Shown here piece after piece: positions 1 through 44,740 of a stretch of 64,000 nt of DNA (position 1 is its first letter; the number at the start of each line of letters is the position of its first letter). Origin of the DNA: Halichondria panicea (taxonomy: Eukaryota; Porifera; Demospongiae; Suberitida; Halichondriidae); the NCBI RefSeq assembly GCF_963675165.1, contig NC_087380.1, positions 3,587,803 to 3,651,802 of the forward strand, read 5' to 3'. The notes under the pieces are model-generated. The model was not told the origin of the DNA. It ran no database searches and was given only the letters and a program-made list of their open reading frames with translations. The position numbers and the translations under genes were made by a program.

Positions 1-3000
1 GCATACCTAACCCTGTCTGCCAGAGTCATAGATGTATGATTGCATGTTGTCTTGTAATATAGGTGCCGTTCGGGTGTGCTCTCCCACTGAGTTCTCACGG
101 ATTGGTGATGTTGTCCCTGTTGGGTGTACTGTTTGCATTCCGGAAGGACGTGTCGTAACGTTGAATTGCACCAGACAGAGTACCTTGGAGGTATCAGTTT
201 ACGAGTGGCGAAATGGTGCTGGTATAGTCGTGTCCACGTCACCTCTGCTCATTTCTGGCGCTAACAACAGCTACACTTGTAACACTACATACTTGGACCA
301 TTCTTCAGAAACCGTTGCCTCCGTGATTGCCTGTAAGTGAAAATCATTGGAGATTTTCATAATTTTCATGTGTCAGACTTCCATGAATTTGCTGCTATAG
401 CTACATAATTATTCACTCCATTGTTTGATTGGTAAACTCCACTATACAGACAGAGATGCTGTCACTTTCACTGCTCGAACTGCTGATGAATTTTTCTCTG
501 CACCCCTGATATACGATGGCTGCTCCAGGTATTCTGCTAACATAATTATATAGCCTTTGACATTACCAGGAGCAAATCATTCTAATATAATTATTGCTGT
601 GATGATTCTCAGGTTAAACAACCAGGTGGGACTTGAGAATATAGCTGTCTGTGCATTCGTTGGGGAGACGCTTGAACTAAACTGCGCTACTGATGACAAT
701 ATGGTTCCGTTAGAAATCACAGCTCCTGATGGGAGTATGGCCACTGGATCACTGATTGTGTCGAGTGTGGACATAGGTGACGAAGGAACTTACAGCTGTC
801 GACTGAGCAATGATCCAGGTCCTTGTGGGCTATCAACTGAGCAAAGAGAAGTGCGAGTATTCAGTTACTGTAAGTGCAATGCCACGAAAGGGTTTAACAC
901 ATACCTCAAACATCTTTTAGTAACCACGATATATTATCACCATCCCCATCTTCACTCCTATAGTCTTATCTTTGCGACACACTCGTGTTAATTCTTGGCA
1001 TAACTTCAGTAATTACAATTGACCTAATATGGCTTCTGTCAGCATCTTCATTGGTCATTGGTTAGGTCGACATCGTTGGCTCTCTGTTGCACATTCGTTA
1101 TGTATATAGAGTTCTCTAAACTGTTACAATTGACTAACTACAGCTCCCCATAATAAATTCTACATGAAATATCATCTTATGCTACTGTCTCATGCACTTT
1201 ATAATTGTAACTATAACAATTGTGTCTGTTTGGAATATGCCAGATAAGCGAGTGGATAAACCATACCTATAGTTTGTACATGTCCACCCACTCAACTGAG
1301 AAAATAGCGGGGCACATGATCGCATGCACAAATGATAACCACGCCCATAGCCATGGTAATGGTGCGCATTTAAGGGACATGCCTAATTATAGTAGAACTT
1401 TGACCCTGTTCAGAAATTAGCCGGATAATCGATTCTATGACTCCATACACACACATACAGATGTCCCTGAATCAATTAACCATACTGCTATCACTAGCAG
1501 CCTCATTTCCTTGCGTGCAGTGGAAATCACATTCATCATTCCAGCAGAAAATAATATCCCTATAGCTGAGTATCGCTACATCCTTTGCAGGAATGACTGT
1601 GCTAATTCCACAATTTCCACTGTAAGCACAGTGTCTAGGGGCAACAACATGCTTAGCTTCACTATCAGACAACTGATTCCAAACAGTCAGTATATTTTGA
1701 GGGTGTATGCTGTGAATGAGTTCACAGGCGGCACTACTCCTGTTGATGACGCTGATGCTCACATTTTCAATTCAGCAACTAAAGGTAAGAGATATCTTCA
1801 TGATTATGCTTGTACTGAATTGAGCAATAATTATGCTCGCTGCATCTATAACGCCTTGTTAGAATACACAACAGTACTACAGAACCGTATTTTATCGTTT
1901 ATCGTATTATATGCAGCTGATGGAAGACCAGTTAACCTGATAGTTTACTTATCTACTGACACTCATCTGGTATTGTCATGGACACTCCCAGCACTTGCAA
2001 CACAACCTGACGTCATCGTCATGGATTTCAACATCAGTTGGGGGAGGACTGGAGACCCATCGTCTAGTGATCTTCTACCATTCAGTCCCAGTACACCACA
2101 GCAAAGATTTGCTATACCCTCCATCCTTGAACCTTCCACTCGCTACACAATTGAAGTTATTGCTTACTACTCCGTTCCTTTCCTTATCAGTGATGGTGCT
2201 GCTATCATTGGAACAACACTGCCAAATGATCAAGGTAAAGTGAATGGCATTGTTATTTGATATTGTTACTTTCGATGTTCAATGCAGTACGTACTACTAC
2301 TTGTCCACCTGGTCGTGACTCCATCTGGGATGTCGAATGGCCTGAAACTGGAAGAAATGTGACTGTACAAGGAATATGTCCTCATCAGCTAGGCACAGAC
2401 GTTAGCGGTAAGCCAAAAAGACAGCTGTAACTTTTGCTATTATATTATTTACCGAGTATTGTAATGTTTATATAGGACAAGCCACTCGCTACTGTAACAG
2501 TGAAGGTGTGTGGGCTGACCCTGATGTACTACAATGTAAAAACATGGAGTTTATTAGTATTCTTGAGCAGGTATCTAAACAATACAAACAGATAATTATT
2601 TTGATTTGTGCCCAAATAGTTACATACAATGATCTTGATTGTTGTATATAGGTAACCAGTACTTCAAGCGAGGAGCTAGTAGAGCAAGCAGCTAATCTCA
2701 CCATGCAACTGGCCGCCATAACTCAGCCAAACGCGATCTCATTGCTTCCCTCCTCCCTAAATGCCACCAATCAAGTGCTAAGTCTGGTGATCAGTGCACT
2801 AAAAGAAGAGTCCACCACCACGGACGCTAATGAGGTAGGCGAGAAAAGGTAGTGTATATCTGGAGTATATACTGCATTGCTATATATAACAGTATAATCA
2901 TTTATACCACACTTACGTCACCACTAATTAATTTCATTGGTCAACAGCCCCGGGGCACAATATTTTTCATTTGTCCAAGAACAGAAAGGAGCCTTGCTTA

Positions 3001-6000
3001 ATGGTACTAAGACTCTAAAGCAACAGCAGAATCTGCTCTACAACAATATAGATTGCGTGCTAAGCCTCGACCCATGTACATTTTTGCCAAGAAGAGCTTG
3101 CATCTGCAGCAAAAGATGTTGAATGCACAATGCCAGTGGCAGATTCAGAAGGGGTTCTTCGGGTCCAATTGAACCCCCCATCTGAGACATAAGTGAGTGG
3201 GAGGCACTTAAGCAACTAGTTAGCAAGACGGTTTTCCTTTATTACTAGCACTTATCACTTATCTTTATTTCTTGTAAGTTTTGCAAAGCTTTGTTTGAGC
3301 AGTTTTTTACAAACTAAAAGGCTAAAAACTCTCTAGCGCATGCTGACTGTTTGAAGAAAGTGAAAACCTTTTTTTAGGTCAAGCGCATGCTCACTGTTTT
3401 GAACAACTGACGAGCCACTGGAACCCCCCTTTCAAGAATCCTAGATCCGCCACTGAATGCTCAGACTTAGGAAGCTCCTGAGCATCTGTACGAGTCGATT
3501 TGTTGCTTATAAGATGGTTAATGGCTGTAAAATCCGATATAGTCCTGCTCTTTTGCCGCAATATGCATCGTGTATTGGATTGTTGCTAGAGGGAGATCCT
3601 TTTATATAGTGCTGCGGTCACATGGTATATATAATATTATAAGTCAGATATAACTACACTTACCCAGACTCCGTATCTTGCTACCGTGGTTATATATCCC
3701 TCGGAGTATCCACAGTAGTTGAGGATATGTCAGAGTGCATATCCTCCTCGTAGGTGTGGTATATCCTATATACGTAGCAAAGATCACTGTTTTACATGAA
3801 GGTAGATCTATACCATCAAACAGGAAGCAAATTTAACCAGTAGAACGTTTTCACCAGCTTATAGTGGATGTTCTGAACAATGTGTTGGAGATAAACAACT
3901 CCCAGGGATGGAATGACTTACAGTCTGTAAGTCTATAGTATCAAATTAGAGTGTTATGCTAAAGACTTTCTCTTTCATGTAATATTATAGACTGATGCAG
4001 GAAGTCAAGTGTTGCTGGACAATGCTGAGAGACTGGGTGTTCTGTTGGCTAGGTCACAGAACGCTAATGGAACTATTGAGCCAGTTAGAGTGTCCAGGCC
4101 TAACATTGGTAAGAGGGTATAGTTATGATGTTCACTGCTCATTAATGGACACAGCCATTTCTTCAAGTTTGATTAACATCTCCAAAGACATCACGAAAGA
4201 CATCACTTTTCCTCAAATAGAAGATTTGGTCAATTACACAAACTCATCCACTCTGGTACCTGCCGCTATTCGGATATCCTCAGCATTGTTGGCAGACAGA
4301 CTGGACGAACAAAAAAACACTGGTACAGTAAATTTGGAAGTTATCATTAAAATAATATGCACTTATGAGTTTGGTTTTATAGCTATCCCAACTGTTTTCA
4401 TTCTCTTCCAAAACCTTGGCTCGTTTCTGCCTACCCCCACTGATGGTCTCAGTAATACCACCCAGGGGGCATCAGTTGTCATCTCATCTCAGGTAGGGGA
4501 GCGGGGGAATGGTCGACCCTCCCAGACACTCCAACAATCCCCTTTGTCTCTCAACTTCACTTTCAATGAAGTGAGCAACTGAGTCAAATTTTATGTGCCA
4601 TAATAAGATTATATTGATTCCACTTTAAATTATAGGTTGAAAACCCAGAAAATTATCGTTGCGTGTTCTGGAACTTCTCTGAGCCGTATGTTGCAAAATT
4701 AACACAGTCTGACTATTTATTGTGAAGCATGCAGAGTTGGCAATGGTGGCTGGATCAGTGATGGAGTATCAACTATCAACAATGCTACTGAGGGATCCAC
4801 AACTACTGTTCAGTGTTCTAGTACTCATCTCACTAGCTTTGCTGTCTTAGTGGATCTGGGAGGACCAAAGGTATCAATACAAATTATGCACTCCATATTG
4901 TACCAATATTTATTATGCATTTTTTTGCTAACAGAATAGTTCTCTTGTTGAACGCAAAATTCTTGATGTTGTTTCCTATGCCGGCTGCTCTATCTCTGTG
5001 GTCTGTCTCATAGTAGCTGTCATCTTTTTCCTTGCTCAAGGGTGTGTGTGAGCTCGTACTGTCATATACCATACATGTGGGCCTTACAAAATAATATACT
5101 GTGGTTGTCAGCTTACACACTATAGAGTGTATATATAGTGTTCTACTAAAAAATGTGGTGTGACTAAGATTTATATTAGATAAAAAGATATCTTTTTTAT
5201 GGCGTGTAATTTAAGTCAGTATTGTGCCGGTTATTTTTCCGGGGCAAAAAGGTTTTACTGGGACATTTGCCGCGGCAAAAAAGTTTGGTTTGCTAAATAC
5301 CAGGACGATTGCCCCGGCAAAAAGCAACATTTTTTGGATGGGTAAATACCGCTCCAGAATGCTTACTGAGCCATTTACCGTGGCAAAAAATTTACCAGGC
5401 CTTTTTCCACGGCAAAAATATTTACCAGGCCAGATCTAATCATCCCGTGATGTGCACCTGATCTGCCTCGTGGTGTACATTATTGTACTATGGATGTTGT
5501 GATCTCGTTATTGGCTGCCTTTCAGCTTTCAGAGAGTTAATAAGTAGATAATGTAGTCTTGTACAGCTCAAACCACCATGGATTGCATTTACTGGCACAG
5601 CTCAAACCACCATGGACTCCGTTTACTGGCAAGAGTATCATATCTGAAGCAAAACATTTATCTCTGTGACCCAACAAAGAAGTTGTGTTAATCGTTTCTT
5701 TGTTTTATAAAAGTGAACAACAAAAACTGTACACCCAATCAATATATAATCGGGATTAATGAGGGAAGGAGGAGAGACAGGAAAACAATGGGGAAGTACA
5801 ATTCTTTAGCAGACAAAAAGTCTGCGGCAACTGGCCTGGTAAATGTTTTTGCGGTTGCAAACATTCTGGAGCGGAATTTACCCATCCACAAAATTTTGAT
5901 TTTTTGCCGCGGCAATCGTCCCGGTATTTAGCGAGCCAAACCGTTTTGCCACGGCAATTTTCCCGGCAAATGTCCCAGTAAAACCTTTTTACCCCGGCAC

Positions 6001-7686
6001 AATACTGACTCAAATTACACGCCATATCTTTTACACACATGCAGAAAACAACTCTTCAACAAAGTCCACTACTTTGTTCATCTCAACTTCTCCATTTCTT
6101 TGTTGCTGGCTTTCTTAGTGTTTATTGTTGGAATTGACACTGCAGTTGGAAATAGGGTAACAGGCAATGGCCAAGCCAATAAAGTTTGTTATCAGAAAGT
6201 CTTTTCTTCTCTTAGGTTGGCTGTGCCTTTGTGACTGCCCTCCTTCATTACCTATTCCTGGCAGTGTTCTGTTGGATGTTGTGTGAGGGAGTCATGCTCT
6301 ATCTATTGTTGGTGGCCGTGTTCAGTGCAGTAACACGGAAGTGGTGGTTTTTTCTTATGCTTGGATACTGTAAGTAATGCCAATTGTTGCTATGACTGCA
6401 TGTGTATATATACTACATATTCCCTTTAGTACTTCCCCTGCCCTTTGTGTTAGTCACTGTGGCCGTTAGGTGGCGCTACTATGGTATAGCAGAAACTGAA
6501 CAATCAGAATTGTGAGTGATTGATAGTCTGTATTTTCTCATGACTCTGTTGTGAATGCAGCTGCTGGTTGACAACTCGGGATGGGACAATCTTTGGTTTT
6601 GTTGCTCCAATGCTGGCAGTTATTGTGGTGAGTGTACACCACAATCTATTATACTTGTGATCTATACACTATCAACACTCTCAGATCAACATCGTTTTTT
6701 TGGTATTCATTTTGAAGTCGCTTTGGAAGAACAAAAAAAGTGCTGCTAAGCGAATGGAAAAGGAGGAGAGTAATTTTGAACTTGTCAAGTTAAGCAATAA
6801 TGCTATATTACTGCATGTGCTAGCTCATGAATATATTGCAGGTCTCTACTGCAGGGCGTAGTTGTTCTCCAGCCCCTGCTGGGCCTCACATGGGCATTTG
6901 GACTGCTCACACTCGTCAGAAACACTTCAGCTTTCGTCTGGATATTCACCATCCTCAATTCACTCCAGGTGAAGTGACAACTCTAGTGTTATCATTGACT
7001 TGATACTTAATAATTTTTATATAGGGAGTGGCTGTTTTGTTCTTCCATGTTATAAGGAATGATCAGGTAAGGTGAATAGTATATTTATAATTGCTGCACC
7101 ATTTTGTACAAAGGTGAAGCAAAAGATCAACTACTGGTGCATGAAGTTGTTCCGTCCTTCTACAATTTCAAGATATGATACCGTAAGTGTTAAATCGCCT
7201 TGGATAAATTTTAACATGCTCTTCTTTACTGCAGACTGGAATGTCTAACCTTACAAGTGAAAGCTTAAAAGGTAGATTTTTGATGTAGAATAATTAAGCA
7301 CCTCTTATGCACAGTAGCTAATTGAACACCAAATTTTTGCAGACACAAGCACCCTAAAATCCACTCTCCCAAGCGGAATAACGCTGCCCCTATCTGAGCA
7401 TTCGGAGCAGTCACAGTACTCTCAGCTTCCTATCACTGAAACCAAGATGGAACTAGCAAATGAGGCTGATGACGTAATGGTGGGACAATTACAACCTGTC
7501 TAATATTACAACTGATTGTATTTTTATGTAAAGGAGGCTGTTGCTGATTCACTGGACACTAAGGTCGATCTTAAGCATGATAGTAATGCTACAGAGGACC
7601 TCAGTAATCTAGTGGACTCTAAGGATGACGAAAAAATGGACATGATTGTGGACAAGACAACAACTCTCACTAATAAAGATGTCTAG
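1..7686 (+). CDS. Adhesion GPCR A1 (Ig-FN3-HormR-GAIN-7TM), 5' part off window
   Basis: Predicted plasma-membrane adhesion-class (B2) GPCR, joined from 26 exons with consistent phases: 63-332, 450-528, 613-869, 1461-1784, 1917-2234, 2288-2407, 2476-2570, 2652-2834, 3858-3926, 3991-4108, 4155-4322, 4383-4570, 4636-4685, 4735-4870, 4935-5041, 6045-6156, 6216-6369, 6430-6511, 6561-6627, 6685-6788, 6842-6968, 7025-7066, 7114-7182, 7235-7271, 7343-7479, 7534-7686. The first and third exons encode Ig-like domains (Cys...Trp...Tyr-x-Cys), the fourth and fifth FN3 domains, the sixth and seventh a HormR-like Cys/Trp module, then a GAIN domain. The GPS reads ...QCSSTHLTSFAVLVD, so the HL/T cleavage site and tethered-agonist region are present. 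Seven TM segments follow with WMLCEG in TM3, FCWL in ECL2 and LLGLTWAFG in TM6. The tail is acidic. The signal peptide and first three exons seen in A2 lie left of the window. The donor at 6789 (GTTAAG) is weak. Confidence 0.85.
3134..3455. mobile_element. CAGTGG-type MITE in A1 intron
   Basis: A 322-bp element whose ends are inverted copies beginning CAGTGGCRGAT and leading into a run of G. It is flanked on both sides by AATGC, a likely 5-bp target-site duplication. No coding capacity. The same insertion sits in A2 (37779-38098), so it predates the inverted duplication. Confidence 0.75.
3456..3857. other. A1 intron segment, no gene seen
   Basis: About 400 bp of AT-rich intron between the MITE and the next A1 exon. 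It holds short inverted stretches around ATATCC/GGATAT (3695-3775) and is shared with A2. I see no coding exon or classifiable element. Confidence 0.5.
5199..6025. mobile_element. Foldback element with GCGGCAAA motifs in A1 TM1/TM2 intron
   Basis: An 827-bp element bounded by ATGGCGTGTAATTTAAGTC and its inverted copy. Both arms carry degenerate repeats around CCGCGGCAAAAA and GGTAAATATTTTTGCC. An imperfect 8-bp target duplication (ATCTTTTW) flanks it, clearest in the A2 copy. The centre (about 5420-5720) is ordinary AT-rich sequence. No transposase ORF. The family is not recognised; hAT- or P-like mobilisation would fit an 8-bp duplication. Confidence 0.7.
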
Positions 7687-9359: not shown

Positions 9360-9492
9360 TTTTGTGATCATGTCAGTATCAGTGCAGTTGCCAAATTATC
9401 AAGAATTGAAAGCCAAAATGTTTATGTCAGTATCCGAGGAATTGTAACATTATCAAGAATTGAAAGCCAAAATATTTATATTATGTCAGTGT
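9360..9492. repeat. About 60-bp tandem repeat (B1 upstream)
   Basis: Two to three copies of a unit containing ATGTCAGTATCCGAGGAATT and TATCAAGAATTGAAAGCCAA. The corresponding block before B2 (44560-44740) has an extra, more regular unit, so the array differs in copy number between duplicates. Confidence 0.65.
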
Positions 9493-10028
9493 CTGAGGAC
9501 AAACATACGTGCGTCACATTCATTGTTTACAATAGATGTGTGCGCATGCATAATTATAGGTGGATTAATGTATATAGCCCACCAGTGGGTCTGTTTGTCT
9601 CTGCTCTGTATATGGCATCACTACCATAGCAACCATATATTGCACTGCATTATATGGCACTAATGCACTGCAGGGATTATAATGCTTTTGGGACTTATGC
9701 CCCACTGTCCCACCCAATAACTCATTAATTTGGGTCCCTTTTATAGGCTACTATACCCACTACCTTTTCCATTAGAATTTACTCTGGAATTCATGTATTC
9801 ACTAAAATTCACTCAAAACACATGTCTTTTATAGGGAAAAAACTTGACTAATCAGAAGAGTTTGACGTCATTGGGCAACAAGTTAGTTATTGCAAGTGCC
9901 CTCTGCGGCCCTCGGGCATTATGTCATCCAGTGCAATATAATTATGGCATGTTGCACTCGTGCTGGACAATAACTAATACATAAAGCACTACAGCCAAGT
10001 GGCCCGAGTACCATATTTTGTATGCTCC

Positions 10029-10290
10029 ATGCAAGCTCTCTGCTGTAATACTAATCATCAGATCTAGCTTATAGAGTGCATGTCTAATTAGCTTATACAC
10101 TGCTATACAATTTGCACAGCACTCCACCCGTTGTGAGACATTCTATAGAACCACTGCCTGCGGGCTCTCTGCTGTAATACTAATCATCAGTGCATGTCTA
10201 ATTAGCACATACACTATGACACTACACAATTTGCACAGCACTCCAGGACCACGGACCACGATTGTGAGACATTCTATAGAACCACTGCAG
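10029..10290. repeat. 130-bp tandem duplication
   Basis: Two adjacent units each run from CTCTCTGCTGTAATACTAAT to GACATTCTATAGAACCACTG, with small indels between them. The pair is preserved upstream of B2 (about 45298-45552), so it predates the segmental duplication. Confidence 0.75.
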
Positions 10291-10350
10291 ACAGTTTAGC
10301 ACTATACTTGGGCTTTATGTAAGTTAGACGTTGTTGAAAAGATAATTATA

Positions 10351-10552
10351 CAGTGGAACCTCCGTTAACAACTACCTCCGAATAAAGGCCAGCTGCTATA
10401 TAACGGCCAGGCACCCAGGTCCTAAATGAACAGTTTGTGTACAAAACAACCTCTCAACAAAGACCAAAACATTGTATAAAGGCCAAAACATTGTATAAAG
10501 GCCAAAACATTGTTCCCTAAAGGTGTCTGCATGTTATAGAGAGGTTCCACTG
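10351..10552. mobile_element. Tigger/pogo-like MITE (CAGTGGAACCTC)
   Basis: Terminal inverted repeats CAGTGGAACCTC / GAGGTTCCACTG with TA on both flanks, typical of Tc1/mariner-pogo non-autonomous elements. Inside are repeats of AAAGGCCAAAACATTGT. The orthologous insertion is at 45617-45807. It sits just upstream of the B1 promoter region. Confidence 0.75.
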
Positions 10553-10622
10553 TATCTACAATAATGTGTGGCTTATAAAACGTTCAGATTTGTGCGGTTG
10601 ATAGAAGTATAGTGAGAGTTAG

Positions 10623-10632
10623 TATATAAATA
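10623..10632 (+). promoter_or_regulatory. TATA-box candidate for B1
   Basis: TATATAAATA about 56-65 bp before the B1 start codon. The same motif at the same spacing precedes B2 (45878-45887). Confidence 0.45.
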
Positions 10633-10687
10633 GCAATCCAACTGCATGTGCACATACATGCATGGACATGTTATATCATACTATAGA

Positions 10688-13600
10688 ATGAGTTTCAAGC
10701 ACCATTTTTTCCTCTTTTTACTTTTGGGAAACGTGTCTTTTGTGTGGAGCCAAACTCAGAGTGAGTCATTTTAAAGTAAAACGTCTCATGTCTATGTGAT
10801 GAACCATTAATTTTTTGTTCTTATTGTAAGTCTATAGTGTGTAACTTTATCAATGGTACTCAAATAACGGCCTGGGAGATTATGCAGAACTTTAGCCATG
10901 CTGACGATCTGGAGTAGTTAGTGAACGTGTTCAACCCCATGCATGCAGGCACATAGGTGGCTTGCATTATAATTATATAGTCTGCATGTCAGTGTGTCTT
11001 TGCCTGCCTGCCTGCTGTCTGTCTGTCTGGTTCTGCTTATTAATTTTATATAGTCTTGATTTAGATTGGCTAGAGATCATGGCTTTTTTAAATAAACTCT
11101 TATGTTTATGTGCACCCTACAAGCCTATACAAACCTATTATGTTAATACTCCAACTAGTAAAGGCTTCCTTGCCGGACTCTGTTGAGATACCATATACTG
11201 TCTCAGTGCATCGCCTAAAACTGCAGCAGTGCTACATGCCATTTTAAAACTTGCCCCAACTGTATATGGCTAAATTTCATAGAATTGCAACACACATGAC
11301 TATTAAAATGCATGTGTCTTGCATGCTGGTCATTCATAATTATATAGGACTGATTATGATTTCTTGTGTGTAAATTAAAAGCCTTAAATTGTCCATTAAC
11401 CCTATATAGATGTGACCTTATCAAGTGTTGGCAACAAATTTGTAGTCGGTTTTCCCAGAAGTAATGGTCACGGAGAAAACCAGTTGTTTGTCGCAAACAC
11501 TGGGTCGATTAATGTTAGTTTCACAGTCACACCAATTAATGTTAGTGGGAGCGTTTCAACTTCTTCAACTACGGTAGTAAACATTCCATCTATTTTTGAG
11601 GTTTCTTCTATCAATGAAAGGAATAAGGGAATCCTTGTTGAAGCTGATGGAAACGTCAATGTGTATAGGATATCTTTTGCCACTTCAGCTACTGCAGATG
11701 CTTATTTGGCATTGCCATGTAATGAAATGGTAGTGTATGAATACGAATATTATGGAATCTCGTATATTTCCCCTGGTAGTGACTTTCCTAGTGTGATTTT
11801 GATGGTGGCTTGTGAAAATGAAACTGTTGTCAATTTTGAATACTCAATAATAACACTCAATAGTATGGAAACGTATCAGATTGAAAGTGGTACTGATCTG
11901 ACAGGAACAAGAATAACAAGTTCCAAACCCTTATCTGTATTTAGTGGATCTGATTGTGCTAATGTTCCCCGAGATGTAGACTTTTGTGACCAACTGGTTG
12001 AACAAGTGCCTCCAACTGTGACATGGGGCTCAAAATTCTTCGTAGCTTCTCTCGAGGGTAGATCTACTGGTGAACGTATTCGTGTTCTTAGTGCCCGAGC
12101 AGCAAATGTAGCTGTGAACTGCAACACTGTGGTATCTGTCAGGGAATTCCAGTTGCAGAGTGGAGGGAGTTTCAGAGAATTTGAAATCCCTGTTAACAGT
12201 TTCTGTAGCATTGAATCCACTTCTCCAGTACTTGTTGCTCAGTATGCATATGGTAGTCAGAGTGAGAGTAAAAGATGTGGTGTGGGAGACCCATTTATGA
12301 TGATAATTCCTCCAATTGAACAGTTTACAAACAACTATTTAATAGAGACATTCGCTCGTTTAGAATACAGCTATGTCACTATGTATGTTGCTTCTGAGTT
12401 TTTTCAACCTGAACACATTTTATTGGACAATTCTGTTGTTTCTGGTTGGCATAATGTTAGCTGTTTAAGTGGAGAGGTTTGCGATTACGTAAGTAGAGTG
12501 AATGTGTCCACTGGAGGCCATTCTATTCGCCATCAAAACAGCTTAGCCGTTCTAGGCGTTTCAGTATACGGATTCGACTTGTGCAATTCTTATGGTTACC
12601 CTGGAGGCATGAGGTTGTCTCCCATACAATGCAGCTGTGGTCCAAATTCTACTTGTCTGAATAACATGAGGAACTTCAACTGCAAACGTGAGTTTTAAGT
12701 AGTCTATATATAGTTTCTATAAACAAGAAGAAAAGTTGGATCAGTTTTATGTGCCCTGCTCTTATTACAATCCCACGAGTGGTTCCGCAGCCATGTGACA
12801 TATAATCCTCAAATGCATGGCCATACAATTTAAGGTGAAGGGGACACATTGTAACACTTCAATATAATTATACCTATTGTAGAGTGCGTAGGCACCACTT
12901 GTTGCCCACCTGGTCGTGATTCTATCTGGGGTATTGAATGGCCTGAAACTGAGAGAAATGCATCGATACAAAGAGATTGTCCTAGGGAAGACATTAGTGG
13001 TAAGTCAAACTGTTGGAATTTTTATTGATTTTATTGCTGTTAATAGGACAAGCCACTCGCTACTGTAACAGTGAAGGTGTGTGGGCTGACCTTGATGTCG
13101 TACAATGTAAAAACATTGAGTTTGTTAGCATTCTTGAGCAGGTAAGTATCCAAACAATACACACAGTCTAAGCTATTATAAGTCTTTTTGACTTGTGTCT
13201 AACTCACTGAAATTGCATGTATATGTTTATTATAGGTAACCAGTATTTCAAGCCACGAGCTAGTAGAGCAAGCAGCTAATCTCACCATGCAACTGGCCGC
13301 CATAACTAAGCCAAACATTGTCTCATTACTACCCTCTTCCCTGAACACAACCAACCAAGTACTCAGTTTGGTGATCAGGGCCCTAGAGGAACAGTCAGAA
13401 AATTCTACCACTGATGCTATTGAGGTATAAGTAAGAAATAAAATCTAGCTGAATGCATGTTAGATATCCATGTAGCAATGACATGCATGTTACAGTATCC
13501 AACATTGAACTTTGCAAGTGCTAATGGAATTAAGATCGCAATAATCTACTACATAATTTATAGCTTTTTGCGAGATTGCAAATGTCACATTTTTTTGCTG

Positions 13601-16600
13601 AACTGGCTGATTTACATGCAATGTTTACATTTACAAAACCCTATAATTGTCCCTCAACAAAATTAATTTTAAGCAAATCACATTTTCCATGCATAGCCAA
13701 TAGTGGATGTACTGAGCAATATGCTTGAGGTGACCAACTGTCAAGGAATGAATGACCTGCAGTCTGTAAGTATATATAGTGCTGTATCACATTGTAAAGG
13801 TTTGCAATATTTATAATTATACATAACTATAGAGTGATGCAGGTAGTCAAATGTTGCTGGACAATGCTGAGAGACTGGGTGTTCTGTTGGCTAGGTCACA
13901 GAACGCTAATGCAACCATTGAGCCAGTTAGAGTGTCCAGGCCTAACATTGGTAAGAGGGTATAGTTATGATGTTCACTGCTCATAATGGACATGCATCAT
14001 GCAGCCATTTCATCAAATGTGATTGATACTTCTAAGGCCTTCACAGAAGACATAACTTTCCCTAAAAAAGAAGATTTGGTCAATTTCACAAACACATCCA
14101 TTTCGGTACCTGCCGCTATTCGAACAACCTCAGCATTTTTGACAGAAATACAGAGTGAACGAAACAACACAGGTGCAATTTCTTTATAAGTGGTTAATGC
14201 AATTATGAATTTGGTTTCTGCTTATTACAATTATAGCTATCCCAACTGTTTTCATCATTTTCCAAAATCTAGGCTCGTTTTTGCCTACCCCCACTGGTGG
14301 TTTCAGTAACACCACCCAGGGGGCATCAATTGTCATCTCATCTCAGGTAGGGGAGCGGGGGAATGGTCGACCCTCCCAGACACTCCAACAATCCCCTTTG
14401 TCTCTCAACTTCACTTTCAATAAAGTAAGCAACAGGCCGATTTTATGTAAATTGATCATGATTGTACTTTCCTATAGGTTGAAAATTCCGAAAGTTATCG
14501 CTGCGTGTTCTGGAACTTCTCTGAGCCGTATGTTGCAAAATTAACACAGTCTGACTATTTATTGTGAAGCATGCAGAGTTGGCAATGGTGGCTGGATCAG
14601 TGATGGAGTATCAACTGTTGGCAATGCTACTGAGGGATCCACAACTACTGTTCAGTGTTCTAGTACTCATCTCACTAGCTTTGCTGTCTTAGTGGATCTG
14701 GGAGATGGGTTGAAGGTATCAAAACCCACTTCATTGTACTATAACAAGTAGTCCATTGTTCATTCTGCCAACAGAATATTTCTGAAGTAGAGAGCATAAT
14801 TCTTGATGTTGTTTCTTATGCTGGCTGCTCTATCTCTGTGCTCTGTCTGATAGTAACCGTTGTCTTCTTCCTTGCTCAAGGGTGTGTGTGTGAGCTATTT
14901 CACTGCCAGTAGTTAAAATTACTTACTTATGTGTATGTGATTGTAATCGTAAAACAATAAACGATGACCGGAGTGTGTAATGATACCGTGTACGAGGGTA
15001 CAGCAGGGCATTGATTGATTGACGTGTAAATATGTACCTGTGTGACTACGTATGTATATCATTTACATGCAGGAGACAACTTTTCAACAAAATCCACTAT
15101 TTTGTTCATCTTAACCTCTCCATTTCTCTGCTGTTGGCTTACTTTGTGTTCAGTGTTGGAATTGAAACTGCAGTTGGAAATACGGTAAAGCATGATGTGT
15201 AGATATAATTAGATAATGCACTAATGCGCATTATCTAATCTGGATTACAATGCGCATTACTTTGCGTGTAAACAGGGCTATATAGTCAGAACTTTCTTCC
15301 CTCTCTAATAGGTTGGCTGTGCTTTTGTGACTGCCCTCCTTCACTATCTGTTCTTGGCAGTATTCTGTTGGATGTTGTGTGAGGGAGTCATGCTCTATCT
15401 GATGTTGGTGGCCGTATTCAGTGCAGTAACAAAGAAATGGTGGTTTTTTCTTATGCTTGGATACTGTAAGTATTATATAATGTCAATCTTTATGCCTGCA
15501 TAATTATACTTGATTTTATTTCCCTTTAGTGCTTCCCCTGCCCTTTGTGTTGACCACTGTGGCTGTTAGGTGGTACTACTATGGTGTGACGGAGACAAAA
15601 AAGTCAGAATTGTGAGTGGTTATATATAGATATTTGTACTTTTTCATGACTGTATGCAGTTGCTGGTTGACAACTAAGGATGGGACAATCTTTGGATTTG
15701 TTGCTCCAATGCTGGCAGTTCTTGTGGTGAGTGTATATCACAATCTATCATCATAACATGAACTGTGTCAGATCAACGTGGTCTTCCTGGGATTCATTCT
15801 GAGGGTGCTGTGGAATGACAAAACAAGAGCTGCTAGCAAACAGAGTGATGAGAAGAGAAATGTGACGAAACTTGCCAAGTAAGGCTAATAAAGCAACAGT
15901 GTTATAATGTTATTGTTCTTGACAATTTAAACAGGTCACTACTGAAGGGCGTAGTTGTTCTCCTGCCACTACTTGGCCTCACTTGGGCATTTGGACTGCT
16001 CACTCTTGTCAGCAACACTTCAGCTTTTGCTTGGATCTTCACCATCCTCAACTCATTCCAGGTGAAAGGAATACTCAACTTCATAATAGTTTGATATTAT
16101 CATCTTGTTTCGATAGGGAGTGACTATTTTGTTTTTTCATGTTATAAGGAATGATAAGGTATACCATTACTGCACACAATTCTATTGTATTTAACTGTAC
16201 CGGTTGAAGGTAAGGGGAGAAATCAAGATCGGCTACTGGTATAGAAAGTTTTGCCGTACCTCTGCAGTTTCAAGCGATACAGTGAGTGTTAATAATCGAA
16301 TTGTAATTTAACATGTTCTCTATAATGCAGACATCTGGAATGCCTACCCTCGTAAGGCAAAGCTCAAAAGGTAGATTCTACATTGTACACTGAAAACTCA
16401 CTTTCTGAGCAGTATAGATCTAGTATCTAGTATAGAGCACCTTAGATATATATTTTTGCAGACACCAGCACGCTCAAATCCACTCTCCCAAGAGGAGGAA
16501 CGCTGCTCCCATCTGAACATTCGGAGCAGTCACAGTACTCTCAGCTTCCAATATTTATGGTGAGACATTTACAACCAATGGCTATGACATTGCATGTGAT

Positions 16601-16744
16601 TGTTTTTTGTTTATGAAGGAGGCTACTGGGGATTCAATGGACACTAAGGTCAATCTTGAGCACATTGTTGAGCAGGATAGTGATGCGGCTAACGAGGACC
16701 TCAAGACAGCAACTCTCATTGATGGAGATGCTGGTGAAAACTGA
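10688..16744 (+). CDS. Adhesion GPCR B1 with IgGFc-binding ectodomain
   Basis: Complete predicted receptor, 23 exons, about 1205 aa: 10688-10760, 11410-12687, 12883-12999, 13047-13141, 13236-13424, 13697-13765, 13833-13950, 14005-14172, 14237-14424, 14478-14527, 14577-14715, 14775-14881, 15073-15184, 15312-15465, 15530-15611, 15660-15726, 15772-15878, 15935-16061, 16117-16158, 16210-16281, 16331-16370, 16462-16559, 16619-16744. A signal peptide (residues 1-23) is followed by one large exon with an IgGFc-binding-protein N-terminal domain (about 30-420; GSDCANVP and LVEQVPP motifs), an EGF-like Cys cluster (430-455), a HormR-like module (to 521), GAIN/GPS (cleavage predicted L814/T815), 7TM (to about 1094) and a Ser/acidic tail. 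From HormR onward it is a paralog of gene A; the ectodomain is unrelated. The only donor of concern is GTGCAA at 14173. Start choice: first ATG, with signal peptide, just after a TATA-like box. Confidence 0.88.
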
Positions 16745-16971
16745 ATTATAGTTAGACTGGCTTCAAAAAGAAAGTATAAGATCTAGTTGTTAGATTTAGT
16801 CGTGTGCTGCATGTTTTGTAGTTAAGTTTTGTTAGCCTGACTGATAAAATTATGGTAAGGTCATTGCATGGGCCAGGAGTTCTTACCTATACCTGCATGA
16901 AGATTGACGGGTAGTAATTTTGCTCTGTTTTTTAGGGTACTCTATAATTTTGGCGGATTATTCATTAGCAC

Positions 16972-16977
16972 AATAAA
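16972..16977 (+). terminator. Polyadenylation signal candidate, B1
   Basis: AATAAA 228 bp past the B1 stop, conserved 228 bp past the B2 stop (52222). Confidence 0.4.
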
Positions 16978-17271
16978 AAGTAGATAGAAAAGGACAACAG
17001 GGGCAGGATCCGAAAAGAGGGGGCAATTTACAGAAACATTTTTACTAAAAAAAGGTTAACTGTTTTTTTCAAGCCCTAGCTTTTCTGGTCATGGGTTGAT
17101 TGATGTCTACAACATGAGACATAGAGTACAAGAAGGGCTGGGGTTATTTATATAGCCAGGAGTCTCTTCACTAACAACGATGGTCAATAGTGAAAGCAAA
17201 ACATTTCAAGTGATAAGTGTTTTGTTTGCAGCTAATGCTAGATTTTAGTGATTGCATTGATTTGGATTATA

Positions 17272-17324
17272 TTAATACTTCCCCTGTCTCATATAAAATT
17301 AATATGAGACAGGGAAAGTATTAA
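17272..17324. repeat. Short inverted repeat downstream of B1
   Basis: Two 23-nt arms (TTAATACTTCCCCTGTCTC...) match at 22 of 23 positions around a loop of a few bases. Conserved at 52522-52576. Confidence 0.65.
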
Positions 17325-17705
17325 TACGAGCCGGACCCAATAATTGGCTACGTCTGGCATATCTTATGTTGAAATACAGTCCTTCTCTTGTCTATAAAAA
17401 CAGTTACTCTTGTGGTACATGTAACAGATACCAGTGAATTTTACTTTAAACTATTTCAAAATGTTTCCAAGTAATTTACAGTGCGGACATGTAAATTCTG
17501 GCAAACTATAATTGTGGTACTCTCTGTCAACACAAGCATGCATTGCATACAACTCCTGATTACTATATACTTACTATAATTAATTGCAGAAAGAATAGCT
17601 GAAGGAATCTTTGCTGTCTCATAATTGGTACCATCTCACAATACTCTAGCTCTAGCATGCAGGAGTGCATGAATACATTCCTGGTAAGTAGCAAAAGACT
17701 GATAT

Positions 17706-17741
17706 AGATCTAGATATAGCAGGAATGCTATATCTAGATCT
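17706..17741. repeat. Perfect 16-bp-arm palindrome upstream of C1
   Basis: AGATCTAGATATAGCA, a 4-base spacer, then its exact reverse complement. Conserved at 52957-52992. Confidence 0.7.
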
Positions 17742-20334
17742 GCATGAAGGCATCTGGCTCAGCTTCATTCAGCCTTGAAAAGTGTACTAGATGGATGGGT
17801 CTGCTATTCTGCATGCAAAGACTTCTATCAGAGTGGTTAATTAGACCCCTTGAAAATTATTAAACATGTATGGTAAACCGTAAAGGGTTGTTACATTTAT
17901 AACAAAAAAACTAAAGACTTGGACCCAGGCCACATCGAGGCCACATGGCCTAGCCTGCCAGATCAGACACAATGGAATCAAGCAAGCCCACTTTAGCTGC
18001 TGTATTAAATGAGCTAGTTCCGATTGAAGACAAATGGCAGGACATTGGGATACAGCTGAACCTGAAAGATGAAATATTGCTGGGAAACCTACCAACACAC
18101 GCTCTCAGTTGCAAGAAATGATTCGCCATTGGCTGGACACTAGTAAGGCTTCTTGGACTGACCTAGTTTCTGTTTTGAGTACACGTTTAGTGTCAGAGGA
18201 AACCATAGCAGGTGTACTGAGCTTTACGTATTGCTATGATCATGAACCCCTCAATACTGATGGAGGGGAAAGCCGCAAAGATTCGTTGGAGAGAGAGCCT
18301 CGTCTCAATGGCAACCATCGCTCTGAAGCTAGAACTAAGTCAATCGTAGTGAGAGTCAAAGGTCGAAATGTACCCCGTGAAGTTACATCACGGCTCGAAA
18401 AGACAGTTCCAGAGTGTGATGGCACAGAGCATAGTCTTGGAAACTATGAGGTGGATAAAGGTCACACCCATAAATCTCATCGTCACTCAATTTCAAGCGC
18501 TTCAGGCATGTTTCTAAGATAATGTTATCAATTTTAATGTTTCTCCACCTGTATAGAACTTCTAAAAAGTGAGGTTGGAAAGTCGCTGAGAAGAAAATTG
18601 CTGAGTGATGTTAAATCTGCTAGAAGACACCTGGTAAGAAGATTTATGTGCATGTATAGCAAAATGTTTGTTTTCCCACCGGTGTGCAATTGCTATATAC
18701 TGATTGTGACTGTCACCTCAGAATGGTCACTCTGAACCAGTAGTGATTGACTCAAGATCAAAGCACACCCCAGAGGGAAATCCTGACCTACAGGATCGTA
18801 TACGAGGTATGACTAGGAAGAAATACTGTTGAGGTAGTTAGAATCTGTAATGGCGTGAATGTCTCGTAGATTATTGCCCTTTGCTTTAATGTACATGTGC
18901 AACAACTGCAGTTCTTCATATTCCTCCAAACCACAGGCTCATACTCGGAAGGCACAACGGAAACTCCCAACTCAAGATTGAAATCGAGGCAGACCAGAGT
19001 CGTTGAAAACACACAAAGAGATTACACAAAACAACTGGTATCATCCACTGACAAACGTAAGAGTCAATTCTTACCTGAGAAGGAGAAACATACTCCAAGA
19101 CGACCAGACAAAGACATGGCGGCCGTTAGTTGATTCAATAACTCATCATCGCCAAATCGTTTCTCGAGAAGATCCATAGACGTGAAAAATACGACAGATA
19201 GATCAAGAAAGGCTCCAGAACTCTTAAAAAATGCTCACACTCAAATTGTATGCTCAAAAACACCTGAGAGTATTCTGAACCGGAACAGAATAGCGGCTGC
19301 AATTTGTGACACTGTGAAGACAACTCTAAACGAGAATAAATGTGACAAGCAAAAGGTGAGATCAGATGCACCTAAAAAACGAGCAAGTTTTGTTTCGATT
19401 GAGTCACCCTGTGACCTGTTCGAAGGTTTGATAAAGCTGTGAAATCCCTTATGAAGAGTAGTTCAAAACATTTTAAAAGTGTGGAAAGAAACGTGAAAGT
19501 GTCTGATATAGATTAAACCTCAGAAAACAACTCTCACTGTCACTCCACTCATTCTGAGCACTCAACGTCCAGCTCACATTACCCCACAAAGAATACTTCA
19601 GACACAAAAATGTCAAAAGAAGGATCTGATTTGGAGATAGCCTCAAGAAAATCTAAATACAAACACTCTACAAAATCACCTGTTGAAAGAGAGTGTAAAT
19701 CCCGGTCAAGTAAAGTGGTCAAGATTGAGGTGACTAGTGACGGTTCTCCCTCTCAAAAGATCAAGAAGAGCTCTTACCACTACTCCAGTGACTCAGAACT
19801 TACGAAGTGCAAATCAAAACACACTAAAAATAAATCCGAAAAAAGTGCGGAGAGAAAGAGGAAATCTGAAGAAGAGTCCGACTCAGAAACTGTTCCAAGC
19901 GCTCACACTTGACTAAATCTCCTCTTCAAAATGAAAGTGACTCCTTGCCAAGTAAGGTGATCAAAATTGAGGTGTCCAGTGATATAGAAGTGTCAACCCG
20001 CCGAAAGATAAAAAAGAGCTCACACAAATACTCTAGTGATTCTGACAGTACAAAGAAACAATCTGAAAAGCATGCAGATAAAAAGAAGAAATTGGAAGCA
20101 GAAAAAGAGGCTGAACCAGAATCGACCTCAAGATGTGAAAATTATGATATTCATAACTTTTCAAAACTCCTCACGAGTAGCTTTTATTTCCAAATTATCT
20201 GTGAGTACACGTTTTTACGATTTTACTTTCATTCACAAACGTAGTGAATGTTAATACCCACAAAATGTTTTGTTGTCTTTTAAGGTACATGAATGGTATA
20301 AATGTTTTGGTCTAGCCCTATAGTCATAGTTATT

Positions 20335-20864
20335 ATGCCTCGGTGCGCATGCGCAAGCGAGGTAAGGTAGTGTGTTTGTGTGTCTGTGTGTGTGTCTGTG
20401 TGTGTGTCTGTGTAGACTGCTACAGCTGCTCCAGGATGAATCAAGTGCAAGTAAGAGTTTCTATAGGCTTCTAGTCATGTTTACTTGGATTTTAATTCGT
20501 GGATTTGCAAAATAATGCTTCGTTCTCGAGTTATGCCTAGTTTTGCTTACTTGGAATGCCATTGCAGCCTTTTCAGTAGAGCACGTGGCCAAACTTGCTT
20601 ACCGAGTGTTGCTACTCTACTTAGTAGTTAGCTCTGCACTAGAACGCTAGCTATTGGTAGCTGCAAAGGTGACAAGAGAGCTTCAAGGCTCTGCTAATGC
20701 AGCCATTAATTTTAGACTTTAACTTTTGGCATAGATCGTTTTTAACAACAATCATGGGCGGTCATTACCCACTCTGTGAGTTTTTGCATGCAGCAAAATT
20801 AAATTGTTTTATCATGTGTATAAAAGCTTTATGTTATGTAGCTTTGGCATCTCCACCGAGGCAT
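20335..20864. mobile_element. ATGCCTCGGTG MITE, copy 1 (C1 intron)
   Basis: About 530 bp bounded by ATGCCTCGGTG and CACCGAGGCAT, with a TG-rich stretch near the 5' end (20371-20412) and internal CTGCTACAGCTGCTC. No ORF. A different MITE occupies nearly the same intron position in C2 (56448-56959). Confidence 0.75.
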
Positions 20865-21169
20865 CAGCACCTGTGGTGCTTTCATTGGTACATGATTCTC
20901 AATCAGTATCGATTGACTCCTTTCCTTTCTATACAGATACCTTCCCATATCGTTTCCATCAGTTAGCGAGACCACCCCCTACAAACACGACAGACAGCAA
21001 GCAGCTGTTCCAGATGTCCTCCACCCCAAACCTTCTAATGTAACTTTGGGCGAATAATAATAATCTTAGCTAATTTTGTCCGGCTATATTTAGGTACTCA
21101 TTATATAATTAATTTATATATATGTACCCCCTACAAAGAAAATCGCATGTATTCATCGTAACTTATATA

Positions 21170-21300
21170 CGGAGGAACCCTTGTTATAACGGCCACCCTT
21201 GAAGAAATGCCAGTCACCCAGGTCCAATTTGCATACAAAACAACCCCTTGACAAAACGCTACCTCTGTATAACTTGTTCCCCAAATCAATGTCTGCTCAA
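21170..21300. mobile_element. Degraded Tigger-like MITE in C1
   Basis: Contains AACGGCCACC, CACCCAGGTCC and ACAAAACAACC in the same order as the MITE at 10351-10552, but the ends are eroded. The corresponding C2 copy is about 57236-57356. Confidence 0.5.
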
Positions 21301-21724
21301 AATGGTGAAAATTAATGATCATTATTCATTACTTCCCAAATCTCCTCGCACATTTTCCCTATAGATTAGTGTACCATCTTTTGTGGAGATCTCTTCTGAA
21401 TCATCAGTCGGCAAGGCTACACCTGGCAAACATGACAGACTGGGAGCACCTGATCCCAATACCTTTCAACCAACACCTTCTAAGGTAGACATACTGACAG
21501 TGCATGTGCATCATCCTAAGGATCATCTCTTTCCTGTACTAACAGTGTATAGTCTATGTAGTGCTCAATTATATGTCCCTATTGTTACCTGAGGCCGTGC
21601 CGCGGCCAGCGGGTATAGTAGTCTGTTGATTTGTCTGTTTGTGACATCTGAGTCTACTCCCCTGGATACCATAGCACTGCATTTACAGCATGGATAGCCT
21701 TCACACAACAAGTAATTATTAGTT

Positions 21725-22248
21725 ATGCCTCGGTGCGCATGCGCAACCGAGGTATACGGTAGTGTGTTTGTGTGTGTCTGTCTGTGTGTGCGTAGACTGC
21801 TACAGCTGCTCAAGGATCAATGAAGTGCAAGTAAGAGTTTCTATAATGTATCTAGTAATGTTTTCTTAGATTTTAATTTGTGGATTTGCAAAATATGCTT
21901 CGTTCTTGAGCTATGCTTACTTGGAATGCCAATGCAGCCTTTTCAGAAGAGTGCATAGCAAAACTTATTCACCGAGTGTTGCTACTCTAATTAGTAGTTA
22001 GCTCTGTACTAAAATGCTAGCTATTGGTAGCTGCAAGAGTGAGATGAGAGCTGCAAGAGTGAGATGAGAGCTGCAAGGCACTGCGCTGCGCTGATGCAGC
22101 CATTAATTACTTGAACTTTTGGCATCGATCGTTTTAACAACAATCATGATTGATCATTACCCACTCTTTGAGCAACAAAATTAATGCATTTTCTAATGTG
22201 TGTATAATAGTTTTATGTTATGTAGCTCTGGCATCTCCACCGAGGCAT
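21725..22248. mobile_element. ATGCCTCGGTG MITE, copy 2 (C1 intron)
   Basis: A second 524-bp copy of the same family with both ends intact. The matching insertion in C2 (57788-58012) is only 225 bp because of an internal deletion. Confidence 0.75.
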
Positions 22249-22299
22249 CATGATAAAAGGTGTGCTCCATTATTCTCTCCTCACCGTACCCCATATGTT

Positions 22300-22317
22300 C
22301 CCCCCCCCCCCCCCCCC
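22300..22317 (+). repeat. Poly-C run
   Basis: Eighteen C in a row within the last C1 intron; the C2 equivalent is an interrupted CCTCACTCCCCC. Likely slippage or read error. Confidence 0.6.
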
Positions 22318-23269
22318 ACTGCTTCTTCATTCTTCACTCACGGAGTGGCATCTGTGCCAGCTTTAATTGGCTTAAAATACATTGGCTTTGTGGTGATAGT
22401 GACCGGTCCTTAATTACTGTATATATACTATCTATACTGTCACATCCATTAACTGCCATACAGATACGTAAAGTGTCCTCAGGGACCAAAACTAAATCAT
22501 CAGAGAAACCACCAAATTCTCCCAAACCAAACGCTGACGAATTTAATGTTCCCTCGACATTTGGCGATGGAGATTGTGCCAAGAGACAGTTTATTGCTCG
22601 GAAGTGTGTCAAATGCAAACGTTTGCCCAGAAAGCCCAAGCGTTCACGATGCTGTCTCCTCTTGTATTGTGAGCCATGTTCCATGGATACCAAGTACCAG
22701 CTGTGCAGTATGTGTGGCAGGAAACAAGTGTTCAAACTCGATTCTGAACTCAACAACAAGATACCCAAACTAACTGTCTTCTGCAAGCACAACTCGGGAG
22801 GTTGCGATTGGAAGGGCAAACTGTACAAGCTCAAAGACCATCTTTTACACAAATGTGAGGTCCCCTGTCTGTACAGCTCTTTTGGTTGCCAAGCAACGGT
22901 TACCAATGACAACTACAATAATCACATTGAGAAATTAGCTTTAGTGCACCTTGAACTGTATAAAAAGAGCAGGAATAAATCAGCTGACAGTTAATGTAAT
23001 GTGATGTGCTGTGATGTACATGTACGTATATAATTATAGTTATTGTGTTTGTACTATTGCATGCAGTTGCATGATTGTCAGATACATAATAATATTTTTT
23101 GCTATCTCAAACAAAATGATTCATGTAAATTATTATGATTATTGTGACAAATTGTTCCGAATTAGTCTTAATCCAATTCAAATTGTAACGCTTGGCCAAT
23201 TTGATGCAATGCTTTTGGAGTTAAACTATATAATTATGGCTAGCTATGTCAATCAGAAAGTTCCAAAAT

Positions 23270-31439: not shown

Positions 31440-33267
31440 TGAGTTTGTTAGCATTCTTGAGCAGGTATATCCAAACAATACACACACTCAGTTTAAGCTA
31501 TTATATATAAGATCATTCTTTTTTATAGTCTTTTTGACTTGTTTCTAACTCACTGAAATTGCATGTATGTTTATAAGGTAACCAGTATTTCAAGCCATGA
31601 GCTAGTGGAACAAGCAGCTAATCTCACCATATGCAACTGGCCGCCATCACTCAGCCAAACATGGTCTCATTACAACCCTCCTCCCTGAACACAACCAACC
31701 AAGTACTCAGTTTGGTGATCAGGGCCCTAAAGGAATAGTCAGAAAATTCGACCACTGATGCTATTGAGGTAAGTAAGAAATCAAATCTAGCTGAATGCAT
31801 GTTATAGATATTTGGATATCCATGTAGCAATGACATGCATGTTACAGTATATATTTTTCCAACATTGAACTTTGCAAGTGCTAATGGCTTGGTAAAATTA
31901 AGATCGCAATAATCTACTACATAATAGCTTTTTGCGAGATTGCAAATGTCACATTTTTGCTGAACTGGCTAATTCACAATGTTTACATTTACAAAACCAT
32001 TGTACTATAATTGTCCGTCAACAAATTTTAAGCAAATCACGTTTTTCCATGCATAGCCAATAGTGGATGTACTTAGCAATATGCTTGAGGTGACCAACTA
32101 TCAAGGATGGAATGACCTGCAGTCTGTAAGTATATATAGTGCTGTATGACATTGTAAAGGTTTGAAATATTTATATACATAACTATAGAGTGATGCAGCT
32201 AGGTAGTCAAGTGTTGCTGGACAATGCTGAGAGACTGGGTGTTCTGTTGGCTAGGTCACAGAACGCTAATGCAACCATTGAGCCAGTTAGAGTGTCCAGG
32301 CCTAACATTAGTAAGAGGGTATAGTTATGATGTTCACTGCTCATAATGGACATGCATCATGCAGCCATTTCTTCAAATGTGATTGATACTTCTAAGGCCT
32401 TCACAGAAGACATAACTTTCCCTAAAAAAGAAGATTTGATCAATTTCACAAACACATCCATTTCGGTACCTGCCGCTATTCGAACAACCTCAGCATTTTT
32501 GACAGAAATACAGAGTGAACGAAACAACACAGGTGCAATTTCTTTTAAGTGGTTAATGCAATTATGAATTTGGTTTCTGTTTATTACAATTATAGCTATC
32601 CCAACTGTTTTCATCATTTTTCAAAATCTGGGCTCGTTTTTGCCTACCCCCACTGGTGGTTTCAGTAACACCACCCAGGGGGCATCAATTGTCATCTCAT
32701 CTCAGGTAGGGGAGCGGGGGAATGGTCGACCCTCCCAGACACTCCAACAATCCCCTTTGTCTCCCAACTTCACTTTCAATAAAGTAAGCAACAGGCCGAT
32801 TTTATGTAAATTGATCATGATTGTACTTTCCTATAGGTTGAAAATTCCGAAAGTTATCGCTGCGTGTTTTGGAACTTCTCTGAGCCGTATGTTGCAAAAT
32901 TAACACAGTCTGATTATTTATTGTGAAGCATGCAGAGTTGGCAATGGTGGCTGGATCAGTGATGGAGTATCAACTGTTGGCAATGCTACTGAGGGATCCA
33001 CAACTACTGTTCAGTGTTCTAGTACTCATCTCACTAGCTTTGCTGTCTTAGTGGATCTGGGAGATGGGTTGAAGGTATCAAAACCCACTTCATTGTACTA
33101 TAACAAGTAGTCCATTGTTCATTCTGCCAACAGAATATTTCTGAAGTAGAGAGCATAATTCTTGATGTTGTTTCTTATGCTGGCTGCTCTATCTCTGTGC
33201 TCTGTCTGATAGTAACCGTCGTCTTCTTCCTTGTTCAAGGGTGTGTGTGTGAGCTATTTCACTGCCA
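31440..33267 (+). pseudogene. B3: broken fragment of a B-type adhesion GPCR
   Basis: Matches B1 from about 13116 to 14907 (end of HormR through GAIN, GPS and TM1), including introns. It is non-functional: a 2-bp insertion in the first full exon (ACCATATGCAACTGG, near 31629), an in-frame TAG near 31736 where B1 has CAG, and a 4-bp insertion near 32199. It has no start exon and no TM2-TM7. It ends abruptly in the intron after TM1, where the A2 inverted arm begins. Confidence 0.85.
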
Positions 33268-44559: not shown

Positions 44560-44740
44560 ATCATGTCAGTGTCAGTGCTTGCCAAATTATCAAGAATTGA
44601 AAGCCAAAATATTTATGTCAGTATCCGAGGAATTATCAACATTATCAAGAATTGAAAACCAAAATATTTATGTCAGTATCCGAGGAATTATCAACATTAT
44701 CAAGAATTGAAAGCCAAAATATTTATATTATGTCAGTGTC
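44560..44740. repeat. About 60-bp tandem repeat (B2 upstream)
   Basis: Three to four units of TATTTATGTCAGTATCCGAG...ATTATCAAGAATTGAAARCC, two of them nearly identical; expanded relative to 9360-9492. Confidence 0.7.

Follow-up and report, generated by a model that had tools for sequence, protein, structure and literature searches.

Two described proteins stand closest to the gene treated here, the class B2 (adhesion) G-protein-coupled receptor (GPCR) latrophilin-3 (ADGRL3) and the IgGFc-binding protein (FCGBP). The gene lies in a 64,000-nucleotide stretch of Halichondria panicea DNA (assembly GCF_963675165.1, contig NC_087380.1, positions 3,587,803 to 3,651,802 of the forward strand; hereafter the window), where it is present as copies A and B and is predicted to encode an adhesion GPCR with an IgGFc_binding ectodomain. 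Over 661 residues, from the HormR region to just beyond the seventh transmembrane helix, the product of copy A matches ADGRL3 (7wy5) with an E value of 5.6e-65, the best match among solved structures. The two have in common the order HormR-GAIN-GPS-7TM (seven-transmembrane domain), with a HormR-like stretch in copy A that scores below its Pfam cut-off, an HLT site and a hydrophobic tethered-agonist stretch. Copy A differs in lacking two of the four GPS cysteines in the ADGRL3 alignment, as read by eye, and in its IgGFc_binding head; to our knowledge, the head domains of ADGRL3 itself are different ones. FCGBP is a secreted protein in which VWD-type repeats follow the IgGFc_binding domain. Copy A shares with it the N-terminal position of that domain, but it is a predicted membrane receptor with a 7TM domain, and its product gave no VWD match in Pfam at E 1.

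Amphimedon queenslandica has adhesion GPCRs with many members, HRM and SRCR ectodomains and a GPS (PMC4302439); the legend to Figure 4 of that paper names no IgGFc domain, and the string 'igg' occurs 0 times in its main text. For receptor transcripts of H. panicea, the legend to Figure 1 of another study, the nearest description that was found, lists IgGFc-binding, GAIN, GPS and 7TM among the domains and leaves undecided whether IgGFc sits on a GPCR (PMC8242945). Extensive shuffling of ectodomains has been inferred by the authors for choanoflagellate adhesion GPCRs (PMC12716839), where 7TM groups tend to match ectodomains; in the case described below the two conflict, and 'iggfc' occurs 0 times there. 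Neither an IgGFc head on an adhesion GPCR nor this dated swap was found described in a partial search of the literature, and the architecture may be published elsewhere. Domain shuffling in adhesion GPCRs is already known in general; the case of the IgGFc head with relative dating is the addition. We consider it highly probable that A and B are adhesion GPCR genes that arose by a recent ectodomain swap, in which an IgGFc head came to stand on an existing body.

The predicted receptor

Analysis of the sequence confirmed the observation of an original prediction, and the reading given there, an adhesion GPCR gene with an IgGFc ectodomain, is well supported. The exon coordinates given there (10688-10760, 11410-12687 and 12883-12999, with 20 further exons to 16744) were correct, and the spliced frame of copy A runs through 1205 codons and a stop with 0 internal stops. 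Past this stop, a search of 656 nt for AATAAA and ATTAAA gave a single site, an AATAAA at 16972. That two intact copies exist also held, as A and B are both open, with 1190 of 1205 aligned residues identical. With gaps excluded, exons 2-20 of the two copies are 99.1% identical and the introns between them 98.6%, the whole 8.5-kb block is 96.9% identical, and dN/dS over exons 2-20 is 0.10-0.29, a ratio calculated from few changes.

When the 1205-residue product of copy A was compared with Pfam, the expected IgGFc_binding (residues 121-412, E 1.6e-49, 169.2 bits, covering the entire profile 1-297), GAIN (534-740, E 1.1e-16, 61.4 bits) and 7tm_2 (838-1084, E 3.1e-48, 164.6 bits against a cut-off of 20.6) all scored above cut-off, as did GPS (773-820, E 1.3e-10, 42.0 bits). 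HRM (457-511) fell just below, with 22.7 bits against a cut-off of 26.2, and the ADGRL3 alignment covers the same stretch; a HormR domain is frequent in adhesion GPCRs but not found in all of them. The predicted EGF-like exon fared less well: no EGF model matched the product at E 1, and what stands is that the end of exon 2 holds, by eye, four cysteines of a six-cysteine, EGF-like-looking module seen in relatives on contig C1. The IgGFc exon had 0 matches among solved structures at E 1, and an AlphaFold model made with four sequences reached a mean predicted local distance difference test score of 47.7 and a predicted template modelling score of 0.38. The name IgGFc-binding alone is no evidence for binding of IgG Fc.

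The HL/T cleavage triad is present as CSSTHLTSFAVLVD in A, B and the neighbouring genes W1 and W2, all four of which have HLT and TSFAVLVDLG in common. HLT is also found at the IgGFc-GPCR loci C3_3.34 and C1_4.52, and HFT takes its place in 11/11 other modelled C1 bodies (the L011-L022 family), so that cleavage may differ there. By analogy with adhesion GPCRs, the protein would be cleaved at HL/T and retain its head as a non-covalent fragment, the IgGFc head would bind an extracellular partner, and removal of the head or strain on it would expose the tethered agonist TSFAVLVDLGDG and lead to G-protein signalling.

Separate relatives of head and body

The head and the body, or chassis, of A and B differ in ancestry, which makes the gene a mosaic, a point that the original prediction had not made. 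Of 12 related IgGFc-GPCR loci on contig C1, copy A was compared with eight, namely those with exon 2 modelled, C1_4.52 aside. The DNA shared with these loci, which begins at 11379-11393 and ends at 12682-12685 depending on the locus, takes in the IgGFc exon and the adjoining end of intron 1 (Table 1). The rest of copy A otherwise matches the same eight loci in one 7TM exon alone, at 75-78%, and at one locus the match also reaches the IgGFc exon of the next gene. The match of copy A to W1 begins at 12888 and continues at 76-83%, and that to L043, a receptor gene just upstream of the window, begins at 12902 and continues at 74-80%. Relics of Fn3 or Ig domains were not found between 8000 and 13000 of the window (best E 1.5). 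When intron 1 of copy A was aligned with the C1 signal exon, the score was reached by 0, 2, 5, 8, 12, 26, 71, 90 and 159 of 500 shuffles at nine loci.

Protein identities divide in the same place. The IgGFc domain of copy A is 72.9-76.0% identical to those of the eight C1 loci and 31.6% to that of C3_3.34, whereas its chassis is 36.7-40.2% identical to those of 11 C1 loci, 53.9% to that of C3_3.34 and 80.2-80.7% to those of W1 and W2. An Fn3 domain adjoins HormR in W1 and L043 by Pfam and in W2 by a near-identical frame. Since W1, L043 and A share a chassis but differ in head, three kinds of head stand on one chassis within about 70 kb.

Silent divergence (dS) was estimated by the Nei-Gojobori method with Jukes-Cantor correction. 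For the IgGFc exon, dS from copy A to three C1 loci is 0.34-0.39, whereas for five 7TM exons it is 1.47-1.61 to the same three loci; for the chassis it is 0.33 to W1 and 0.29 to L043. Over exons 3-18 it rises to 3.1 for C1_17.64 and is infinite (saturated) for C3_3.34, and it is about 0.02 between A and B and likewise between W1 and W2. In the one C1-family pair that was measured, the chassis (0.11) was not faster than the IgGFc exon (0.19). The swap is called recent because silent divergence is low both for the head against C1 and for the chassis against its neighbours, and about 1.5 for the 7TM part against C1.

Trees gave the same division. In an 18-row IgGFc tree, A and B join the C1 family (support 98/95 with C1_4.52 and 87/94 without it), and C3_3.34 and six other rows lie outside. 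In a 28-row 7TM tree, A and B are instead sister to W1 and W2 (100/99), and 11 C1 loci form a separate clade (100/100) that also contains two loci without IgGFc, a label that here means no nearby PF17517 hit rather than a full gene model. The IgGFc label requires six changes on this tree, four of them forced by well-supported branches, and a constraint uniting A and B with C1 was rejected (log likelihood 213.6 lower; approximately unbiased (AU) test, p 1.5e-11). A DNA tree rooted on C3 places L043 outside A, B, W1 and W2 (98/99), which points to Fn3 as the older head. Exon 2 of C1_16.55, 17.60 and 17.63 (stops or breaks) was omitted from the IgGFc trees and C5_4.28 from the second of them; the full chassis tree omits C1_4.52 and C5_4.28, and the 28-row tree omits C1_14.63 and C1_17.66, which had too few columns.

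The course of events was probably as follows. An ancestral receptor in the C4 cluster, to which the receptor genes of the window belong, would have carried Fn3 domains before its HormR-GAIN-7TM body, and one duplicate would have gained, ahead of its HormR exon, a C1-type IgGFc exon that brought along the final 17-31 nt of the preceding intron. On its right side, the gained DNA would end inside the EGF-like end of the C1 exon, about 60 nt before the C1 donor, with a different GTGAGT donor put to use; the reading frame would be kept because the junction is in phase 1 on either side. Duplication of the swapped gene would then have given A and B.

Alternatives to a recent swap

Several points weigh against a recent swap as set out above. 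The splicing of A and B is inferred from sequence, and exon 1 of copy A draws its support from the A/B pair only. The chassis dS against C1, being near or past saturation, is only a rough lower bound. In a 20-row IgGFc tree, whose rows all lie on C1 apart from A and B, the AU test (p 0.25) does not fix the exact position of A and B within C1; two narrower AU tests on smaller sets gave weak p values of 0.044 and 0.024, and the groups for the AU tests were picked after the identities had been seen. Protein AU tests on the position of L043 outside A and the W genes (p 0.26 and 0.084) do not settle it. The closeness of A and B, which are 97% identical across 8.5 kb, could in part be an assembly effect. 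The direction of the swap rests on outgroups, and an old IgGFc exon that had undergone gene conversion would bear comparable traces.

This last point leads to an alternative that we regard as unlikely, in which the IgGFc exon was ancestral to all of these genes, was lost in W1, W2 and L043, and was later made alike in C4 and C1 by gene conversion. A diverged IgGFc exon does stand upstream of the related C3 chassis, and the very small distances within the A/B and W1/W2 pairs make exchange within the cluster plausible. Against this, W1, W2 and L043 have a homologous Fn3 domain beside HormR in common, the IgGFc domains of C3 and copy A are far less alike than their chassis, and an exchange of DNA between contigs would still be required.

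A further alternative splits the locus into one gene for a secreted IgGFc protein, which would end just past 12687, and another for a GPCR, which would begin downstream; in its favour, the frame of exon 2 meets a stop three codons beyond the donor. Nevertheless, intron 2 is just 195 bp long and has neither AATAAA nor ATTAAA, the phase of its GTGAGT donor equals that of the HormR exon, the border of the HormR exon has no start codon, and 18 other places in the genome repeat the order of IgGFc before GPS. The 122 IgGFc hits (PF17517) in the 131-Mb genome, a family count to be taken as a lower bound, fall into 113 places; at 19 of these a GPS follows on the same strand, no more than 20 kb downstream and before the next IgGFc; with GPS strands flipped the count was 0/113, and under random rotation (200 trials) it averaged 0.97 with a maximum of 6. 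The exon models of the relatives were built with the phases of copy A imposed. Read without an imposed phase, a phase-1 donor of GTAAGT or GTGAGT type closes the IgGFc exon in 9 of the 12 C1 loci, two of which also have an overlapping phase-2 site; in the other three, one donor was not displayed and two exons are broken. The modelled end of the IgGFc exon has no matching donor close by at the linked loci C3_3.34 and C5_4.28, and those two fusions are accordingly called from exon order alone. The phases, the Pfam matches, the open frames of both copies, the 17 additional places where IgGFc and GPS stand in line and an intron 2 free of a polyadenylation signal support well the predicted joining of the IgGFc exon to the GPCR exons, and two separate genes are very unlikely.

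A single old fusion with a slow IgGFc domain and a fast chassis is disfavoured to the point of being barely credible: constraint on head and chassis can differ, but the contrast is also seen at silent sites (0.34-0.39 against about 1.5), its order is reversed for C3_3.34, and W1 and W2 have the chassis without the head.

Neighbouring genes and other uses of the head

The features of the window are collected in Table 1. A and B lie in a large duplication (9370-23030 and 44615-59119, 88-97% identical in blocks) with the inverted W1 copy, W2, between its arms; this may be a real duplication or a product of assembly. Within the window, a single open frame of 1609 residues (24851-29680, forward strand) has right-handed beta-helix and Chlam_PMP repeats and, by eye, several C-terminal transmembrane stretches, and another open frame (22257-22994, forward strand) matches a TRAF-type zinc finger just under the Pfam cut-off.

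Table 1. Positions of the receptor genes, their parts and related features (window coordinates unless a contig is named)
Feature	Position	Strand	Remarks
Copy A, whole gene	10688-16744	+	23 GT-AG exons, consistent phases
Copy A, exon 1	10688-10760	+	start resembles a signal peptide; no clear DNA match to C1 family
DNA common to copy A and C1 IgGFc-GPCR loci, widest extent	11379-12685	+	80-82% identity, 8/8 loci; takes in 17-31 nt at the 3' end of intron 1
Copy A, exon 2, IgGFc_binding head	11410-12687	+	1278 nt, symmetric, phase 1 at both borders
Copy A, intron 2, join zone	12688-12882	+	195 bp; no significant match to C1 family or C4 neighbours; AATAAA/ATTAAA absent
Copy A, exons 3-4, HormR/HRM-like	12883-13141	+	under Pfam cut-off; exon 3 is 12883-12999
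Copy A, exons 5-11, GAIN and GPS	13236-14715	+	HLT site and TSFAVLVDLGDG stretch
Copy A, exons 12-19, 7TM (7tm_2)	14775-16158	+	exon model and Pfam
Copy A, exons 20-23, predicted cytoplasmic tail to stop	16210-16744	+	exon model
Copy B	45947-51994	+	23 exons, open, 1206 residues; IgGFc exon 46672-47949
W1	1-7182	+	A/B chassis, HormR exon from 2288; fn3 and sub-cut-off Ig matches, no IgGFc; 5' end beyond window
W2	34056-43406	-	inverted W1 copy, 6.8 kb at 97% DNA identity; IgGFc absent, Ig/Fn3 frames nearly those of W1; 5' end by open reading frame only
GAIN/GPS-only fragment	31523-33267	+	94-95% identity to A and B; left over from a further copy
L043	C4:3574000-3583000		just upstream of window; adhesion GPCR, SRCR, Sushi and two fn3, A/B chassis

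Dozens of C1-type IgGFc exons lie on contig C1, where the stretch C1:14.98-15.12 Mb has 22 IgGFc hits. In the one of these 22 that was read, L029 (C1:15067000-15072400, about 15.07 Mb), the exon precedes Sushi exons, of which Pfam confirms two and a third is recognized by eye, and one hydrophobic, transmembrane-like stretch. As compared by eye, six distant IgGFc hits have a same-strand VWD hit 2.3-4.7 kb downstream, a pairing like that of FCGBP. The statement that IgGFc domains are otherwise known from secreted mucin-like proteins is too narrow for this genome, in view of L029 and of these six pairs. A Sushi census, in which 150 of 4112 candidates were scored, is not usable. A scan of prokaryotes with one peptide pattern returned 26 stretches, of which 2 were relatives. 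One is a 992-residue protein of Candidatus Kapabacteria (L041) whose IgGFc region is 36% identical to that of copy A in alignment; the other is an IgGFc frame on a contig assigned to a Cycloclasticus symbiont from a Poecilosclerida sponge (L042), probably host DNA in a symbiont bin.

Among nine C1 IgGFc exons, pN/pS averaged 0.50, with windows of 0.56-0.78 over residues 25-139, 0.83 at 179-217, 0.22-0.41 over 218-396 and about 0.5 over 377-449; these values would fit a variable N-terminal face of the IgGFc head. It is possible, and we put it forward tentatively, that the IgGFc exon, with its symmetric phases (1-1), is a plug-in recognition head that has repeatedly been placed on unrelated bodies, which, judged by position, would include as many as five 7TM lineages, together with a Sushi single-pass type. 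New surface receptors would then arise by head swaps while signalling bodies are kept, much as in an innate recognition repertoire.

Evidence for ectodomain shuffling in adhesion GPCRs usually comes from old sequences that are saturated, whereas the head and body of A and B can still be aligned as DNA to separate relatives. Their join falls within an intron of 195 bp, and the swap can be dated by silent sites relative to gene duplications. The IgGFc domain, which has no sequence match among solved structures, is thereby tied to a predicted receptor with a cleavage site. As natural chimeras, these genes would allow signalling by the same body to be compared under IgGFc, Ig/Fn3 and SRCR/Sushi/Fn3 heads.

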